Below are positions 19,147 to 58,689 of a stretch of 58,689 bases of DNA, piece by piece. The notes beneath the pieces are model-generated. The model worked only from the letters and a program-made list of their open reading frames with translations, did no database searches and was not told the DNA's origin. The DNA is from a virus: positions 1 through 58,689 of IMG/VR virus record IMGVR_UViG_3300008107_000212, one strand, 5' to 3'. A program made the translations under genes and the position numbers. Position 1 is the stretch's first letter. Each line of letters begins with the position of its first letter.

Positions 19147-21168
19147 TTAAAGACCAGGTGGTCCTGCATATGGATTTGCAGAGGGCCAATTGTAATTTAC
19201 AGGCCAATCGTACTCATCAGCACCTGGATGGTTGGCAGGTTTAGTTCTAAAAGATACTACACCCCCCATAGGATATTGACCATTTGCGTCAGTAGCACTA
19301 TTTGGATCTTGTAATTGAAACTGCAAACTATTTGGATCATTAGCTCCACCACCAGCAGTTGCAGCAGCATTATTAGCTCTTACTACTATCATTCCTCCTC
19401 CTTTACTAAAAGCAGCAGAACCAGTTGGACCAGTTTGGGTACTTTTTAGTTTTAATGATGTTAATGATCCTCCTAATAATTCTGCTGTTATACCTACATA
19501 AGCTGCCATTCTTTCAGAACCATTACTAGATGCTGTCCACGGTGTGCCTGCTGTTACATATCCACTACCTCCTAAAGAAGCCGCCCAAGTAGGATTAGTA
19601 CTAGCAGAAATCCATTCAGCTTGAGTACAGAATGGTAAGCCATCAATTCCTTGTACTTGCCATGCATTTCTCCATAAATCTAAAGCAGATTTAAAATAAT
19701 AAACTCGATGTGTAAAATTCATTACGGCAAAAGAAGAAGCATCAGTAGGTATTTGCCAGCTAGCAGGGGCATTAGGAACAAGTATATTGTCAGAACCACT
19801 TAAATATGGAGTAATTACATAGTAAGCTCCTGTATTATTAGTTTGTGGATAGTCACTTGTTCCGGGATTAAAAGCACTACCGTCGGATGATGAATTCCAA
19901 TATATATGATGGTAATGTTGTCTTCCGGGGCCGAATGGTTGTTCTATTGTGGTTGTTATTTGGGAGCATGATATTGCAAGTGGGGGCCCGGTTGATGTAT
20001 TTTGTAATTCAAAAATTATTCCTTGTCTATATGCTGATTGCCATGTTGAAAGATTTACTTGGGAATCTAAGGATCCACTTCTCGGGGTTATACTTGCTGA
20101 TATAATTACTGTACCTGGGGCGCCAGAATCAGGAACACTTCCAAAAGATGATGTTAAAAGAGTAGGGGCAGCTCCTTCCTCAGTTTTATAGATATTTAAC
20201 TGAAGATGAGTATTTGGGCCTGGGTTTCCTGATGATCTACAGCTAGTAAAAGACATTGTTATAAAAACGGGCATTTCTCCACAAATATAATTTGCTATAG
20301 GGAAAACAGGGCCTCTAAAGAAGTTATATGAACCTGTACCCGCAGTTCCTCTAGTAGTTTGAAAATAACTAGAAGTAAGAGGATTAAATTGTCCAGCGTA
20401 TTGTCCGTTTGGAGTGTTACCAAAAATACTTGTGGAATCTAATCTTAAAGTATCTAGAGTCGGAGTGTTAAATCTTAAAGTTTGTTTTGTATTACCACCT
20501 GCTAATCTAAAAAAGCCATCAGTTATCAAACTAGAAGCCAATTGGGCTGAGGCTGAATATTCATATCCTCCATTTATAACAGGAATAAGTCTAGATCCTG
20601 TATATCTTGGGACTGTACTTCCGTCTGCTTGGTTTACTAAAAATGGGCCTAAAAAAGTTCCATCAGGTGCTGTTCGACCAGTAAAAATATTATATGCTAA
20701 ATTTTTAGATCCGGATAAGAAATTTTTAGCATTTGTAGACCAAGTAACAGGATCATTACCTGTTGAACCACTACCATAATAAGCCCAAAATAATTGATTA
20801 TGTCTAGATCCGGTTTGGTTTATTAATAATGTACCGGCAGGAACAGTAGGACCATATATAAATCCTGCTTTATAACCAGAAACAGTATAATCATATGGTG
20901 TAAAGTTAATATTGGCATTAGATTCAGAACCATATACAACTGTTCCAAATGCTATTGGCCTATTCCATCCGGTAAGTGAGGAACCTGCTACTCCTTCATT
21001 GCTTGAATTTAATTTACCTGAAGCACTTAAAGAAAAAAGGCCACCAGGGTTATTAAAAGTATATTCGGCGCGTGCCCCTCCTGCATATCCACTTGCACTA
21101 TGAAAAACCTCGTTTAATTCATGGCGAGGTCCTATGATAATCATATTTGTTGTTGAAGTAAATGCCAT
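19147..21168 (-). CDS. Large virion protein, probably fibre or tail appendage
   Basis: 673 aa, very rich in Gly, Ser, Thr and Asn, beta-type, without enzyme motifs, signal peptide or membrane segment. The N-terminus is MAFTSTTNMIIIGPRHELNE. The composition is like that of receptor-binding or head-fibre proteins. It begins 3 nt after a small cupin-like gene and ends at a strong terminator. Assignment as structural is by composition and location only. Confidence 0.6.
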   Translation of the reverse strand: MAFTSTTNMIIIGPRHELNEVFHSASGYAGGARAEYTFNNPGGLFSLSASGKLNSSNEGVAGSSLTGWNRPIAFGTVVYGSESNANINFTPYDYTVSGYKAGFIYGPTVPAGTLLINQTGSRHNQLFWAYYGSGSTGNDPVTWSTNAKNFLSGSKNLAYNIFTGRTAPDGTFLGPFLVNQADGSTVPRYTGSRLIPVINGGYEYSASAQLASSLITDGFFRLAGGNTKQTLRFNTPTLDTLRLDSTSIFGNTPNGQYAGQFNPLTSSYFQTTRGTAGTGSYNFFRGPVFPIANYICGEMPVFITMSFTSCRSSGNPGPNTHLQLNIYKTEEGAAPTLLTSSFGSVPDSGAPGTVIISASITPRSGSLDSQVNLSTWQSAYRQGIIFELQNTSTGPPLAISCSQITTTIEQPFGPGRQHYHHIYWNSSSDGSAFNPGTSDYPQTNNTGAYYVITPYLSGSDNILVPNAPASWQIPTDASSFAVMNFTHRVYYFKSALDLWRNAWQVQGIDGLPFCTQAEWISASTNPTWAASLGGSGYVTAGTPWTASSNGSERMAAYVGITAELLGGSLTSLKLKSTQTGPTGSAAFSKGGGMIVVRANNAAATAGGGANDPNSLQFQLQDPNSATDANGQYPMGGVVSFRTKPANHPGADEYDWPVNYNWPSANPYAGPPGL

Positions 21169-55214: not shown

Positions 55215-55233
55215 ATGTTAAAGAAAAGCCTTG

Positions 55234-55307
55234 TAGGGGAAGCGGGACTCGAACCCACAACCTCGTGCTCCCAAAGCACGTAATCTAACCAATTGATATA
55301 TTCCCCT
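55234..55307 (-). tRNA. tRNA-Pro(TGG)
   Basis: Full cloverleaf: 7-bp acceptor AGGGGAA/TTCCCCT, anticodon loop TTTGGGA, TTCGAGT T-loop. Last tRNA of the array. Confidence 0.9.
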
Positions 55308-55522
55308 ATGTTTCCCCACCCTGAGATTTGGGGTGAGTAGTCATTCTGGTTTTTTCCTATTGATAAAACCTACAGGGCATCCCCTATTAAAACAGTCACA
55401 CTACGAAGGAGGAGCTGTGATTGGCGCCTTTAGCCCTAAGAAACGGCATTTACGATGTCCGAATTCACCGAGCCCATTGTTTAAGTCTTGAACTAAAGAC
55501 TCTGAGCATCTCTTACTCATTG
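55308..55522 (-). other. Stem-loop-rich region inside tRNA array
   Basis: 215 nt without a tRNA. Minus-strand hairpins: AGTCTT/AAGACT, TCACA/TGTGA, AGGG/CCCT, GGTTTT/AAAACC and CACCC/GGGTG. It also holds a 39-codon ORF (ATG 55520, TAG 55401; MSKRCSESLVQDLNNG...) whose codons include several hairpin strands. I cannot decide between a structured RNA and a tiny gene; I favour RNA. Confidence 0.4.
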
Positions 55523-55596
55523 CGGTTCGTATGGGAATCGAACCCATGACCTTCGCAGTGACAGTGCGATATTGTACCCAACTCTACTAACGAACC
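55523..55596 (-). tRNA. tRNA-Asp(GTC)
   Basis: Acceptor GGTTCGT/ACGAACC, anticodon loop CTGTCAC, G73 as usual for Asp. Confidence 0.92.
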
Positions 55597-55600
55597 ATTG

Positions 55601-55673
55601 AGCGATAAACAGGACTCGAACCTGCAACCTCCGACTTGGAAGGACGATGCTCTACCAATTGAGCTATTATCGC
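55601..55673 (-). tRNA. tRNA-Gly(TCC)
   Basis: Acceptor GCGATAA/TTATCGC, loop CTTCCAA, U73. One T-T mismatch in the anticodon stem. Confidence 0.88.
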
Positions 55674-55679
55674 AAATTG

Positions 55680-55752
55680 AGCGGCAAACTGGATTCGAAC
55701 CAGCGACCCTAACCTTGGCAAGGTTATGCTCTACCAACTGAGCTACTGCCGC
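55680..55752 (-). tRNA. tRNA-Gly(GCC)
   Basis: Acceptor GCGGCAG paired with TTGCCGC, loop TTGCCAA, anticodon stem TAACC/GGTTA. Confidence 0.93.
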
Positions 55753-55757
55753 AACTG

Positions 55758-55830
55758 AGCTTCTTATCGGATTCGAACCAATGACCATCCGCTTACAGGG
55801 CGGCAGCTCTACCAACTGAGCTAAAGAAGC
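55758..55830 (-). tRNA. tRNA-Thr(TGT), with C33
   Basis: Acceptor GCTTCTT/AAGAAGC and good D and T arms. Best anticodon stem GCCGC/GCGGA leaves loop CCTGTAA: anticodon TGT with A37, but C instead of the near-invariant U33. Confidence 0.8.
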
Positions 55831-55836
55831 ATTTTG

Positions 55837-55910
55837 TGGACCGTACCGGAGTCGAACCGATGACCTTCTGAATGCAAATCAGACGTTCTAGCCAACTGAA
55901 CTAACAGCCC
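55837..55910 (-). tRNA. tRNA-Ala(TGC)
   Basis: Acceptor GGGCTGT/ACGGTCC with two G-T pairs, loop TTTGCAT, stem TCTGA/TCAGA. Confidence 0.92.
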
Positions 55911-55915
55911 TTTTG

Positions 55916-55989
55916 TAGCGGAGGCGGGACTCGAACCCGCGATCTCCAGGTTATGAGCCTGGCGAGATACCATCTTCTACTACTCCGCG
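55916..55989 (-). tRNA. tRNA-fMet(CAT), initiator-like
   Basis: Loop CTCATAA. Position 1 C faces U72, an unpaired end typical of bacterial initiators, above GCGGAG/CTCCGC. The anticodon stem CCAGG/CCTGG lacks the full three-G:C run, and the D stem is weak. Confidence 0.8.
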
Positions 55990-55996
55990 ATATGTT

Positions 55997-56425
55997 TTAA
56001 TTTTTAAAAATATTTTTACCTTCAGGATTGAAATACATAAATTGATGTGTTTCTATATCTGATTGCCATTTATATTGAACAACAAGCCCATTATTATTCT
56101 TGTAACTATTGTCACCTAAATTGTGGTGGGTTTCTATTATTCTTGTTAACATTTCCCTTGCTATACCATCAGATTTAGTTGCTTGAGTACACATAATGTT
56201 TTCAGTTCCACCCCACTTAAAAAAGTACATAGTCATTAAATCAAAGTTGGGATCGACTGTATATATAACCCAATACTCCGATTGATTTAATCTTTCCCAA
56301 TTTATTGTACCAAATTCAAGACGATTTCGTTCTTTGATTTCAGTAACAGTAAATCCAACCATTGGTTTTTGTGCAAACGCAGTTGAACTGAGTAACACAA
56401 ATAGGATAATAAGTAGTTTTTTCAT
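55997..56425 (-). CDS. Secreted small protein in tRNA array
   Basis: 142 aa. Clear signal peptide MKKLLIILFVLLSSTAFAQ with cleavage after AFA or AFAQ. The mature part (about 122 aa) is soluble, with NWERLNQSEYWVIYTVDPN and a single Cys. It is exported by the host Sec system, so it acts in the periplasm or outside. The signal-peptide style fits Bacteroidota. No family recognised. It is flanked by tRNA genes with only 7 and 15 nt gaps. Confidence 0.75.
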   Translation of the reverse strand: MKKLLIILFVLLSSTAFAQKPMVGFTVTEIKERNRLEFGTINWERLNQSEYWVIYTVDPNFDLMTMYFFKWGGTENIMCTQATKSDGIAREMLTRIIETHHNLGDNSYKNNNGLVVQYKWQSDIETHQFMYFNPEGKNIFKN

Positions 56426-56440
56426 AGTTTTTGTTTTTTG

Positions 56441-56515
56441 TACTCCGTACGGGACTCGAACCCGTAAGCTTTCCCGTGAAAGGGGAATGTCCTAAACCAA
56501 TTAGACGAACGGAGC
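56441..56515 (-). tRNA. tRNA-Glu(TTC)
   Basis: Acceptor GCTCCGT/ACGGAGT, loop CTTTCAC, stem TTCCC/GGGAA. Confidence 0.92.
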
Positions 56516-56525
56516 ATATTAATTG

Positions 56526-56597
56526 CGTCCTGAGTAGGGGTCGAACCTACGGCCTAGCGGTTAACAGCCGCTTGCTCTACCACTGAGCTATCAAGAC
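56526..56597 (-). tRNA. tRNA-Asn(GTT)
   Basis: Acceptor GTCTTGA/TCAGGAC, loop CTGTTAA, G73, stem AGCGG/CCGCT. Confidence 0.92.
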
Positions 56598-56603
56598 AAA
56601 TGG

Positions 56604-56686
56604 TACCGAAGGCGAGACTCGAACTCGCAATGCTATACAGCGCTGGTTTCTAAGACCAGTGTGACTACCAATTCCACCACTTCGGC
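56604..56686 (-). tRNA. tRNA-Leu(TAG)
   Basis: Class II with long variable arm; loop CTTAGAA, stem CTGGT/ACCAG. The sequence continues A-CCA, so the 3' CCA may be encoded here. Confidence 0.92.
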
Positions 56687-56727
56687 ATAAATATACAAAA
56701 TAAATTTTATTTTGCCAAATTTATTTG

Positions 56728-56814
56728 CGGAAGATATTGGATTTGAACCAATGAACCAGTTACCCGATTAACACCTTAGCAGGGTGCCGCTTTAGACCAC
56801 TCAGCCAATCTTCC
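56728..56814 (-). tRNA. tRNA-Ser(GCT)
   Basis: Class II, acceptor GGAAGAT/ATCTTCC, loop CTGCTAA, long variable arm, G73. Confidence 0.92.
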
Positions 56815-56819
56815 TTTGG

Positions 56820-56893
56820 GGCGACCGATGGGAATCGAACCCACCCGCACTAGAACCACAATCTAGCGCTCTACCAACTGAGCTACAGCCGCC
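56820..56893 (-). tRNA. tRNA-His(GTG)
   Basis: Loop TTGTGGT, stem CTAGA/TCTAG. The extra 5' G(-1) paired with C73 that marks His tRNAs is present. Confidence 0.93.
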
Positions 56894-56895
56894 AT

Positions 56896-57345
56896 TTAAC
56901 GGCAGTGATAATCTGCCGCTTTTGTAGCAATTTGAATATCAGGTTTGACATTCACTTTGTATCCCAACGATAGGGCCCAACCACGAGTTGCTCCTATAAG
57001 TTTGTGGCTAGGTGCAATTTCGTCTTGGTTATAGTCCATATCAATTTCAACATTTATGTTGATTTGTTGGGTAAACCATTCTGCCACTTCCAATGTACGA
57101 ACACATTCATTAAATAATCTTGTGAACATATCGCGCACTAGTGGAACTTTTTCTTTTGTATAGATATAGTGAACACCTCTGATACCAAAACGATATGCTA
57201 TTACAGTTACATATGATGTTTCTAATCCTATATTTTGAGAATCAGTACCAATATGAACTTTTAGATTAGGATACCTTTTCATTATCTCTAAGGTATGTTC
57301 AACAACATCTACCACTCTGTTGTCTACTGATTTGAACCTTTTCAT
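56896..57345 (-). CDS. YkuK-like (DUF458) RNase H-fold protein
   Basis: 149 aa. LKVHIGTDSQNIGLETSYVTVIAYRFG is the diagnostic N-terminal strand with GTDS, and HYIYTKEKVP plus a late DMDYNQDE / NVKPDIQIATKAADYHCR end complete the YkuK-family RNase H-like fold. The biochemical role of YkuK is not known; RNA or tRNA processing is possible because the gene sits inside a tRNA array. It is bounded by tRNA-His and tRNA-Met. Confidence 0.85.
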   Translation of the reverse strand: MKRFKSVDNRVVDVVEHTLEIMKRYPNLKVHIGTDSQNIGLETSYVTVIAYRFGIRGVHYIYTKEKVPLVRDMFTRLFNECVRTLEVAEWFTQQININVEIDMDYNQDEIAPSHKLIGATRGWALSLGYKVNVKPDIQIATKAADYHCR

Positions 57346-57360
57346 TTTATTAAATTTTAG

Positions 57361-57434
57361 TAGCGAAAAGCAGAATCGAACTGCTAACCTCAGGGATATG
57401 AATCCTGCGCTCTAACCAATTGAGCTATTTCGCC
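57361..57434 (-). tRNA. tRNA-Met(CAT) or tRNA-Ile(CAT)
   Basis: Loop TTCATAT, acceptor GGCGAAA/TTTCGCT with paired ends, so not the initiator. Whether C34 is lysidine-modified (Ile) cannot be read from sequence. Confidence 0.85.
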
Positions 57435-57440
57435 GGGTTG

Positions 57441-57511
57441 CATAGGTGTGAGGATTCGAACCTCAAACTGCGATTTTGGAGACCGTAATGATACCATTTC
57501 ACCACACCTAC
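57441..57511 (-). tRNA. tRNA-Trp(CCA)
   Basis: Acceptor GTAGGTG/CACCTAT, loop CTCCAAA, G73 as expected for Trp. Confidence 0.9.
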
Positions 57512-57521
57512 ATTATTTTAG

Positions 57522-57592
57522 AGGTACTGATTGGAATTGAACCAATATAAGAGCTTTTGCAGAGCTCCACCTTACCAGTCGGACACAGTACC
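57522..57592 (-). tRNA. tRNA-Cys(GCA)
   Basis: Acceptor GGTACTG/CAGTACC, loop CTGCAAA, stem GAGCT/AGCTC, U73. D arm is irregular. Confidence 0.88.
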
Positions 57593-57598
57593 AAATTG

Positions 57599-57670
57599 TA
57601 GCTCCTAAACGATTCGAACGTTTAACACTTCGTCCGTAGCGAAGCAGTTTATCCATTAGCCTAAGGAGCC
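57599..57670 (-). tRNA. tRNA-Arg(ACG)
   Basis: Acceptor GGCTCCT/AGGAGCT, stem CTTCG/CGAAG, loop CTACGGA. Confidence 0.92.
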
Positions 57671-57675
57671 TTGTG

Positions 57676-57749
57676 TTGGAATAGCCGGATTCGAACCAGC
57701 GACCTTTTGAATATCAGTCAAATGCTCTAACCAACTGAGCTATATTCCA
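57676..57749 (-). tRNA. tRNA-Ile(GAT)
   Basis: Acceptor TGGAATA/TATTCCA, stem TTTGA/TCAAA, loop CTGATAT. Confidence 0.93.
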
Positions 57750-57754
57750 ATGTG

Positions 57755-57836
57755 TGCCTGCAGAAGGACTCGAACCTCCGAACTCAAACGAGAACTAATT
57801 TACAGTCAGTTGCAATTGCCGCTATGCGATACAGGC
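57755..57836 (-). tRNA. tRNA-Tyr(GTA)
   Basis: Class II, acceptor GCCTGTA/TGCAGGC, loop CTGTAAA, long variable arm. Confidence 0.92.
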
Positions 57837-57845
57837 GTATTTGTG

Positions 57846-57919
57846 TGGTGAATGGTTGGATTCGAACCAACGACGCGAGGCTCTTCAGGCCTCCGCTCTA
57901 CCAACTGAGCTACATCACC
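57846..57919 (-). tRNA. tRNA-Phe(GAA), bulged acceptor
   Basis: Loop CTGAAGA, stem GAGGC/GCCTC. The 3' acceptor strand CATTCACC has one extra T relative to the 5' GGTGATG, giving a single-base bulge. Confidence 0.85.
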
Positions 57920-58061
57920 AAATGAACACAATGTTGGAGTACCCATCTCGCTCCAATCTTAACTGCTTATTCGTAGTTTTACGAGGCCTCGGCAGAGGGT
58001 GCTAACTCCATATAGAGACCTGCGCTGGTCTTTGTTCCATATTTCTGTTCATTGTGTTTTG
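57920..58061 (-). ncRNA. Unassigned structured element in tRNA array
   Basis: 142 nt closed by AACACAATG/CATTGTGTT. Inside on the minus strand: GACC/GGTC, TCGTA/TACGA and TTGGAG/CTCCAA hairpins and a GAGGCCTC palindrome. No tRNA T-loop, no long ORF (only a 17-codon frame). The regular pairing suggests an RNA product or spacer. Confidence 0.45.
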
Positions 58062-58157
58062 TAGTCAGGACAGGAATCGAACCTGTGAGTATAGGATTAG
58101 CGCTTAGCCTATACACATCTTATTTCTAGAGTGCGTCTACCATTCCGCCACCTGACT
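58062..58157 (-). tRNA. Aberrant class-II tRNA-like unit 1
   Basis: Acceptor AGTCAGG/CCTGACT, Leu-type D arm and T arm ACAGG/CCTGT are intact. The anticodon arm does not form a 5-bp stem (only TCT/AGA), and the variable arm is a long GTATAGG/CCTATAC hairpin. Anticodon unresolved. Confidence 0.55.
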
Positions 58158-58274
58158 ATGTGCGTGTCTTTCCACGCTGTCACCAATTTTGATAGGCTCA
58201 TCGGATAGGTTCATCGGACAGTCTCAAAGACCTTTGATGACTACCTAACCAGCACTTGAGATTGGAACTCCTGG
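58158..58274 (-). ncRNA. Unassigned structured element with 13-nt repeat
   Basis: 117 nt with an imperfect tandem CCGATGA(A/G)CCTAT, a GCGTG/CACGC hairpin, CAAAG/CTTTG, CTGTC/GACAG and outer CCAAT/ATTGG pairings. No ORF or tRNA. Confidence 0.4.
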
Positions 58275-58378
58275 AGGTCAGGACAGGATTCGAACCTGTA
58301 CAATGTATGGTATTCGTTACCTTATATTTCCATACTCCCTAAACTAAGGGTGCGTATATCCAATATCGCCACCTGACT
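58275..58378 (-). tRNA. Aberrant class-II tRNA-like unit 2
   Basis: Acceptor AGTCAGG/CCTGACC (A1-C72 mismatch), D arm GCG/CGC, T arm ACAGG/CCTGT. Anticodon hairpin CCCT/AGGG leaves 6 nt in the loop; long variable hairpin GTATGG/CCATAC. Closely related to unit 1. Anticodon unresolved; TAG is one reading. Confidence 0.55.
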
Positions 58379-58384
58379 ATATTG

Positions 58385-58488
58385 TCCACTCTGTTGGGTT
58401 CGAACCAACTTACTCGCTCTGTGTTCGGATACTGCAGTACCAGGCGACACAGAGGTCAGTGTGTTTTACCACATAACACTAAGAGTGA
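58385..58488 (-). tRNA. Aberrant class-II tRNA-like unit 3
   Basis: Acceptor TCACTCT/AGAGTGG, D stem GTGT/ACAC, T arm GTTGG/CCAAC. The rest is dominated by an 8-bp CTCTGTGT/ACACAGAG hairpin with an inner near-palindrome. No standard anticodon arm; anticodon unresolved. Confidence 0.5.
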
Positions 58489-58489
58489 G

Positions 58490-58564
58490 TACACCTTGCT
58501 AGATTCGAACTAGCGACCCTTTGCTTGTAAAACAAATGCTCTGAACCTGCTGAGCTAAAGGTGT
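58490..58564 (-). tRNA. tRNA-Val(TAC)
   Basis: Acceptor ACACCTT/AAGGTGT, loop TTTACAA, stem TTTGT/GCAAA. Confidence 0.92.
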
Positions 58565-58569
58565 AAATG

Positions 58570-58643
58570 TGACCCCATCGGGACTCGAACCCGAAACCTT
58601 CGCATTAAAAGTGCGAAGCTCTAACCAATTGAGCTACGAGGTC
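58570..58643 (-). tRNA. tRNA-Lys(TTT)
   Basis: Acceptor GACCTCG/TGGGGTC, stem TCGCA/TGCGA, loop CTTTTAA. Confidence 0.93.
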
Positions 58644-58648
58644 TTTTG

Positions 58649-58689
58649 TACTCCCGACAGGACTTGAACCTGTAACCTCGATGGTATAA
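58649..58689 (-). tRNA. Partial tRNA at right edge, perhaps Ile(TAT)
   Basis: Only the 3' half is present: acceptor strand CGGGAGT, T arm ACAGG/CCTGT and 3' anticodon stem CATCG. With the usual 5-nt variable loop the anticodon is TAT, which would read AUA. Confidence 0.6.

Follow-up and report, generated by a model that had tools for sequence, protein, structure and literature searches.

A structured RNA can be carried in the lower part of a transfer RNA (tRNA): in the tRNA scaffold design, host enzymes process such a molecule and its ends are protected. Transfer-messenger RNA (tmRNA) and YrlA, a bacterial Y RNA, also combine a tRNA-like module with another RNA in place of the anticodon arm, and each has one conserved function. 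To our knowledge, the t-elements of plant mitochondria serve as processing signals, and none is known to carry a payload. The laboratory tRNA scaffold is in use for recombinant RNA expression (PMC3753655). Theta ribozymes of gut phages, which are structured and self-cleaving, lie by tRNA genes of Bacteroidota phages and have been proposed for tRNA 3′ trailers (PMC10879173). Phages can also deploy tRNAs against defences that cut tRNA, such as PARIS (discussed in PMC11455837). Here we describe three tRNA-like units (U1, U2 and U3) in the virus record IMGVR_UViG_3300008107_000212 (positions 1 to 58,689; this whole stretch of 58,689 bases is called the window). The first-pass annotation of the window had pointed to three tRNA-like units without a standard anticodon arm; they are real, and two of them belong to a far larger family. 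U1 and U2 are members of Family A, in which a tRNA shell holds an insert (the payload) between D arm and T arm, and U3 is a Family B unit, with a different tRNA shell and a single conserved payload. We consider it reasonably probable that Family A units are small RNAs in a tRNA shell, freed by host tRNA maturation, whose function lies in the payload.

Like the laboratory scaffold, the units have an RNA cargo in the lower part of a tRNA, and they would share its host processing and end protection. The scaffold is artificial, whereas the phage units are natural, carry hundreds of payloads docked by the T stem, and are mobile. Like plant mitochondrial t-elements (PMC4368725, PMC11658184), they are tRNA-like and non-decoding, lie by messenger RNAs (mRNAs) and bear tRNA-type processing signals, and they too have their tRNA-like acceptor/T half in sense orientation in intergenic positions. 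Unlike t-elements, they form a large family in which the payload is conserved and exchanged. The likeness to tmRNA and YrlA is conceptual; the units have no gathering-score Rfam match to either. Theta ribozymes have a similar position by phage tRNA genes but are not tRNA-shelled; Family C, described below, is nearer to them in position. Anti-defence phage tRNAs are likewise phage-encoded, tRNA-like genes in arrays, but they are working tRNAs with anticodons, which the units lack. No description of such units was found in the literature covered, preprints and most subscription papers lying outside that coverage; judged against it and general knowledge, the units are indicative of a type of small RNA not yet described from bacterial viruses.

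The window has T4-type baseplate genes, and the wedge protein of its baseplate shares 48.5% identity with the counterpart in Flavobacterium phage immuto. A tRNA array occupies the minus strand at 55233-58689, where ARAGORN called 21 ordinary tRNAs (55233-58643). ARAGORN made no call in 57920-58488, and Rfam at gathering score also passed over this interval, with U1, U2 and U3 all unmatched. From tRNA-Val (58489-58564) to tRNA-Phe (57847-57919), the minus strand, on which all features given here lie, reads U3, U2, a 118-nucleotide (nt) stretch, U1 and a 142-nt stretch, X.

The anatomy of the three units was established by direct reading of the sequence, and none of them has a standard anticodon arm. 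U1 (58063-58157; payload 58087-58131) has an acceptor stem AGTCAGG/CCTGACT, a D stem GCG/CGC and a T stem ACAGG/CCTGT. At the anticodon position it has only a bulged hairpin of 5 base pairs (bp) without U33, and a 7-bp hairpin, GTATAGG/CCTATAC, ends 2 nt 5′ of the T stem. U2 (58276-58378; payload 58300-58351, placed by direct reading and fold) has the shell of U1, with T stem ACAGG, an A-C mismatch in the first acceptor pair, T at position 73 and a C at the end of the shell; its insert holds a 4-bp/6-nt hairpin and a 6-bp hairpin. U3 (58386-58488) has an acceptor stem TCACTCT/AGAGTGG, a T stem GTTGG and a single arm of 8 bp that encloses an inner hairpin. U1 and U2 had been annotated as close relatives, which is true of their shells, identical in type, but not of their inserts, which fall into separate sequence clusters; U3 is of another family. 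The units keep elongator-tRNA features, namely the acceptor stem, the T arm, A/N73 and a 3′ processing signal. In a permissive scan U2 scored only 18.1 bits, less than 29. All three are below the gathering threshold of RF00005, while many relatives reach 30-49 bits, the model tolerating inserts.

Sequence error was ruled out for U1, which is 100% identical in the related locus L004 and whose insert is found again, as homologues, in L389, L401 and L475. For U3 it was ruled out because eight other contigs contain orthologues whose changes are compensatory. On this comparison, error and decay are excluded for U1 and U3; U2 alone may yet reflect one or the other.

Relatives were obtained by a scan with a 149-amino-acid protein encoded within the array, which gave 37 loci with many further units having the same ends and unrelated middles. 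A motif-free search of these loci, for tRNA top halves without an ARAGORN call, returned nearly only the AGTCAGG shell and the U3 shell. The larger unit set came from IMG/VR, scanned with patterns that varied the 3′ motif. At least 960 Family A units were collected, at least 717 of them distinct, and the inserts of the distinct units form at least 440 sequence clusters. Whole records contain up to 14 Family A copies (0 with a reversed control pattern), and the 13 units examined in one genome represent 11 different payload clusters. The Family A shell is nearly constant (AGTCAGG...CCTGACT, T stem ACAGG).

T at -1, A73, C74 and the acceptor stem are features used by tRNA-maturation enzymes. A73 is found in 93% of units, C74 in 98% and T at -1 in 80%, signals that match those of the ordinary tRNAs of the same loci (C74 in 100%), and minimum-energy folding yields the acceptor stem in 182 of 185 units. 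Because maturation-type signals are kept, we infer that the units are excised and receive CCA. The commonest Family A D arm, GGCGGAATTGGTAGACGC, is, together with A73, reminiscent of class II tRNA-Leu, so that the units likely descend from a tRNA, and the leucyl-tRNA synthetase LeuRS might be able to charge the shell. This likeness would suit decaying or intron-bearing tRNAs, both of which the first-pass annotation had proposed, yet as a general account either is hardly credible. The units are numerous, they keep their processing signals, and their inserts covary with compensatory changes. An anticodon stem-loop (5 bp, 7 nt) occurs at the expected place in 4.3% of units and in 3.3% of shuffles, that is, at chance, and standard anticodon arms, when sought in close relatives, were absent there too. 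The stem expected from an anticodon-loop intron is not enriched either (13 of 351, against 20.2 ± 3.6 in shuffles), which tells against a spliced insert, as do the intact isotypes, including Leu-TAA and Leu-TAG, present in the same phages as the units. Rescue of a missing isotype was rejected as well, since the isotypes are present in relatives.

The payloads are themselves structured and conserved. Of 351 payloads, 40 have a 7-bp stem that ends exactly 2 nt 5′ of the T stem, compared with 5.2 ± 1.4 in shuffles; this docking site is close to the joining place of a class II variable arm, and U1 obeys the same rule. Payloads have somewhat more structure (mean z -0.72 relative to shuffles). When homologous payloads were compared, in 119 groups, 98 compensatory pairs were counted, compared with 6.2 in slid controls. 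Variable columns make up 14% of unpaired and 11% of paired positions, so that conservation is nearly equal in both, and change per site is 0.037 in the payload against 0.081 in the D region, in pairs chosen for payload similarity. Because of this covariation, the conserved unpaired columns and the slower change than in the D region, the payload is unlikely to be mere filler.

When a motif common to all payloads was sought, only D-arm remnants were enriched. Payload matches to Escherichia coli 16S, 23S and 5S ribosomal RNA (rRNA) were not above shuffles, which gives no sign of rRNA mimicry. At gathering score, tRNA was the only known Rfam family in units and relatives, and no ribozyme family (theta or other self-cleaving) matched at the units. 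ARAGORN called no tmRNA in the window or relatives, nor did Rfam at gathering score, and YrlA (RF02553) gave only sub-threshold matches, which in the window fell on ordinary tRNA pairs. One payload family (L041, L049, L079, L182, L204 and L237) bears CACCTCCCC, similar to the anti-Shine-Dalgarno end of 16S rRNA.

Near-identical payloads are found with unrelated flanks in different phages (for example L009_1827/L097_184, L086/L146, L128/L140 and L092/L173). At the site between tRNA-Val and tRNA-Phe, the flanks are constant and the content is replaced among phages: the window has U3, U2, Family C and U1; L004 has U3 and U1; L003, L005 and L007 have U3 and another unit; L018 has U3 and a third unit; L009 and L165 have X only. 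Payloads also occur in other shells. The L007_4294 payload is found in a shell GGTCAGG/CCTGGCC with T stem GTGAG, that of L094 in a shell ending ACCGACT, and that of L051_588 in a shell TGTAAGG/CCTTACA. Payload matches beyond the called units were, where read, mostly variant shells not caught by the unit finder. As judged from these comparisons, it is not the shell sequence that persists but the payload with the tRNA fold. Movement among phages and sites, with a cassette-like shell and high turnover, is also what selfish cassettes would display if they spread by recombination or homing at identical ends and their insert diversity reflected this spread and not a benefit to the phage. We regard such cassettes as distinctly unlikely: the RNA structure of the inserts is under selection, which spread as DNA does not need, the units encode no protein, and the inserts shift between different shells.

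Units are often located between co-directional genes, on the sense strand. A stop codon lies 0-15 nt upstream of 28% of units (opposite strand 4%, ordinary tRNAs 10%) and an ATG lies 8-40 nt downstream of 31% (opposite strand 3%, ordinary tRNAs 13%), with distance peaks at 5-9 nt after the stop and 16 nt before the ATG. This tight intergenic placement, with the processing signals kept, speaks for processing punctuation, in which the units are cleavage signals that split operon mRNAs, like plant mitochondrial t-elements, and the insert is self-folding filler. Punctuation is nevertheless unlikely, as the payloads are conserved, covary, change more slowly than the D region and outlast changes of shell, and many units are located within tRNA arrays, where separation exists already. 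The neighbours of units are small unknown genes and also terminase-like and other large genes (products read by inspection). Units with several different payloads lie 31 nt before a conserved gene (METTILANGKPVGKFGSGSMKGID...) in L057, L115, L121, L126, L147 and L156.

The top half is strongly conserved, in the motif-free set too, and the D arm with A73 is Leu-like; both could be explained if the acceptor/T half were a decoy that binds a host reader of tRNA tops (a cutting or modifying enzyme, or a synthetase), the diverse lower half evading that factor or a second one. We give this very little weight. The payloads are conserved and recur in shells whose acceptor and T stems differ, which argues that the sequence of the top half is not what matters; nor do the units present an anticodon loop. 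The earlier suggestion that the units mimic tRNA for another purpose is broadly supported, but not in its example of decoys for anticodon nucleases, no anticodon loop being kept.

We return to small RNAs in a tRNA shell, the simplest account that covers the constant tRNA fold, the conserved but unrelated payloads, the cassette exchange and the operon placement. Units would be co-transcribed with neighbouring tRNAs or genes, and host tRNA-maturation enzymes would act on the acceptor/T half to excise them. Owing to the tRNA shape, their ends would be defined and protected, and no promoter or terminator of their own would be needed. The codon-reading part is swapped for an interchangeable, self-folding RNA payload, docked at the junction of class II variable arm and T stem. 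Function would reside in the payload. Because the payloads are diverse and exchanged, we infer that they act in trans, their most likely binding partner being a protein or RNA of host or phage, to which they would be a decoy, inhibitor or regulator. The cassettes move between phages and intercistronic sites, probably via recombination at the near-identical ends, so that each phage has its own set, and U3 would be kin to these RNAs, shelled likewise but with a single conserved payload.

Several points weigh against this account. Most units came via the 3′ motif, and the invariance of shell and motif in the large set is thus partly by construction. Singletons make up 313 of the 440 clusters among the matches listed, so conservation is demonstrated for a minority of payloads, and the U2 insert, found in the window alone, is one such singleton. 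The payload structures were scored on the alignments that had served to predict them, which inflates the share of paired cells. Units adjoin terminase- and virion-like genes, and their position thus gives no sign of an early anti-host role. Excision and CCA addition are read from signals in the sequence, and the partner or target of the payload is putative.

A further step, which we hold only tentatively, is that Bacteroidota phages possess an exchangeable library of tRNA-shelled effector RNAs directed against host factors or defences, the shell being a cassette for processing and delivery of any of them. If so, this library, with hundreds of payload folds, of which one genome may have a dozen or more, would be the RNA counterpart of the protein anti-defence repertoire. 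If the shelled-RNA account is right, the units are a natural tRNA-scaffold system in which many unrelated conserved RNA folds share one shell and are traded between phages. Hundreds of structured RNA families would be added, RNA would stand alongside protein in the accessory arsenal of phages, and failed or 'undetermined' phage tRNA calls could conceal a functional class. With the shell alone as search key, such units could be sought elsewhere, and the binding partners of the payloads can be tested for directly.

The payload arm of U3 (58417-58454) is an 8-bp stem with an inner hairpin, six pairs of which covary. Across nine orthologues, 12 of 36 U3 pairs have both sides changed and 99.7% of cells are paired. 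The covariation score is 0.387, compared with 0.178 in shuffled and at most 0.159 in slid alignments, and was reached by 0 of 500 shuffles. The apical 10 nt (58430-58439) are self-complementary, G-U counted, in 5 of 5 variants, and the two central pairs of the apical loop covary though they are impossible within one hairpin. Because the loop is self-complementary and its covarying central pairs are unable to form in one molecule, it suggests a loop-loop dimer contact, and U3 may perhaps act as a homodimer. The payload hairpin of U1 has a palindrome, AGCGCT (AACGTT in L389), similar to the U3 loop.

Some units have an extra hairpin inside the D loop (L007 5149-5279, L171, L260 and L303), a second insertion point in the shell. 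A few normal-looking tRNAs (Ile-TAT, Lys-TTT) have the AGTCAGG acceptor stem (L115 4958-5029, L056 2846-2915 and L081 13032-13101) and may be chimeras or may have supplied the shell. In one host order, a single genome of 150 contained the 5′ scaffold, namely the bin holding the phage-like contig, and one payload gave only a 23-nt match, in 1 of 150 genomes. Among about 85,000 species genomes the 3′ motif was found in 6 contigs. A host origin of the units was rejected on this near-absence of scaffold, payload and 3′ motif from the host genomes searched. Among named phages, none of 50,697 records covers most of the Family A shell, and the searches turned up no cultivated phage that carries Family A.

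Further RNAs adjoin the units or resemble them. The Family C element (58158-58275), between U2 and U1, consists of a variable domain, a closing stem, UGACA and a hairpin with a GGAAAGAC loop. Family C has 76 unique matches, 64 of them adjoining Family A units, and is also present in L009, L072, L352 and L516. It usually ends at the next unit, 23-26 nt past the start of UGACA, and could serve in processing or self-cleavage, or else be another shell for payloads. X (57920-58061), from U1 to tRNA-Phe, is a conserved structured RNA of 142 nt, a neighbour outside the family. It had no Rfam match, is 85-100% identical in relatives, and its long closing stem is altered on both sides in L009 and L165. 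Family D is tRNA-like, with an acceptor stem AATCGGT/ACCGATT and a T stem GAGGG and without a normal anticodon arm; 5 of its 24 predicted pairs are changed on both sides. It occurs in L123 and L531-L554; the pattern GAGGG + ACCGATT gave it in 26 viral stretches and also in a cultivated phage, Flavobacterium phage immuto (MW353176, L527), where the Family D unit at 20247-20329 is annotated as tRNA-Cys.
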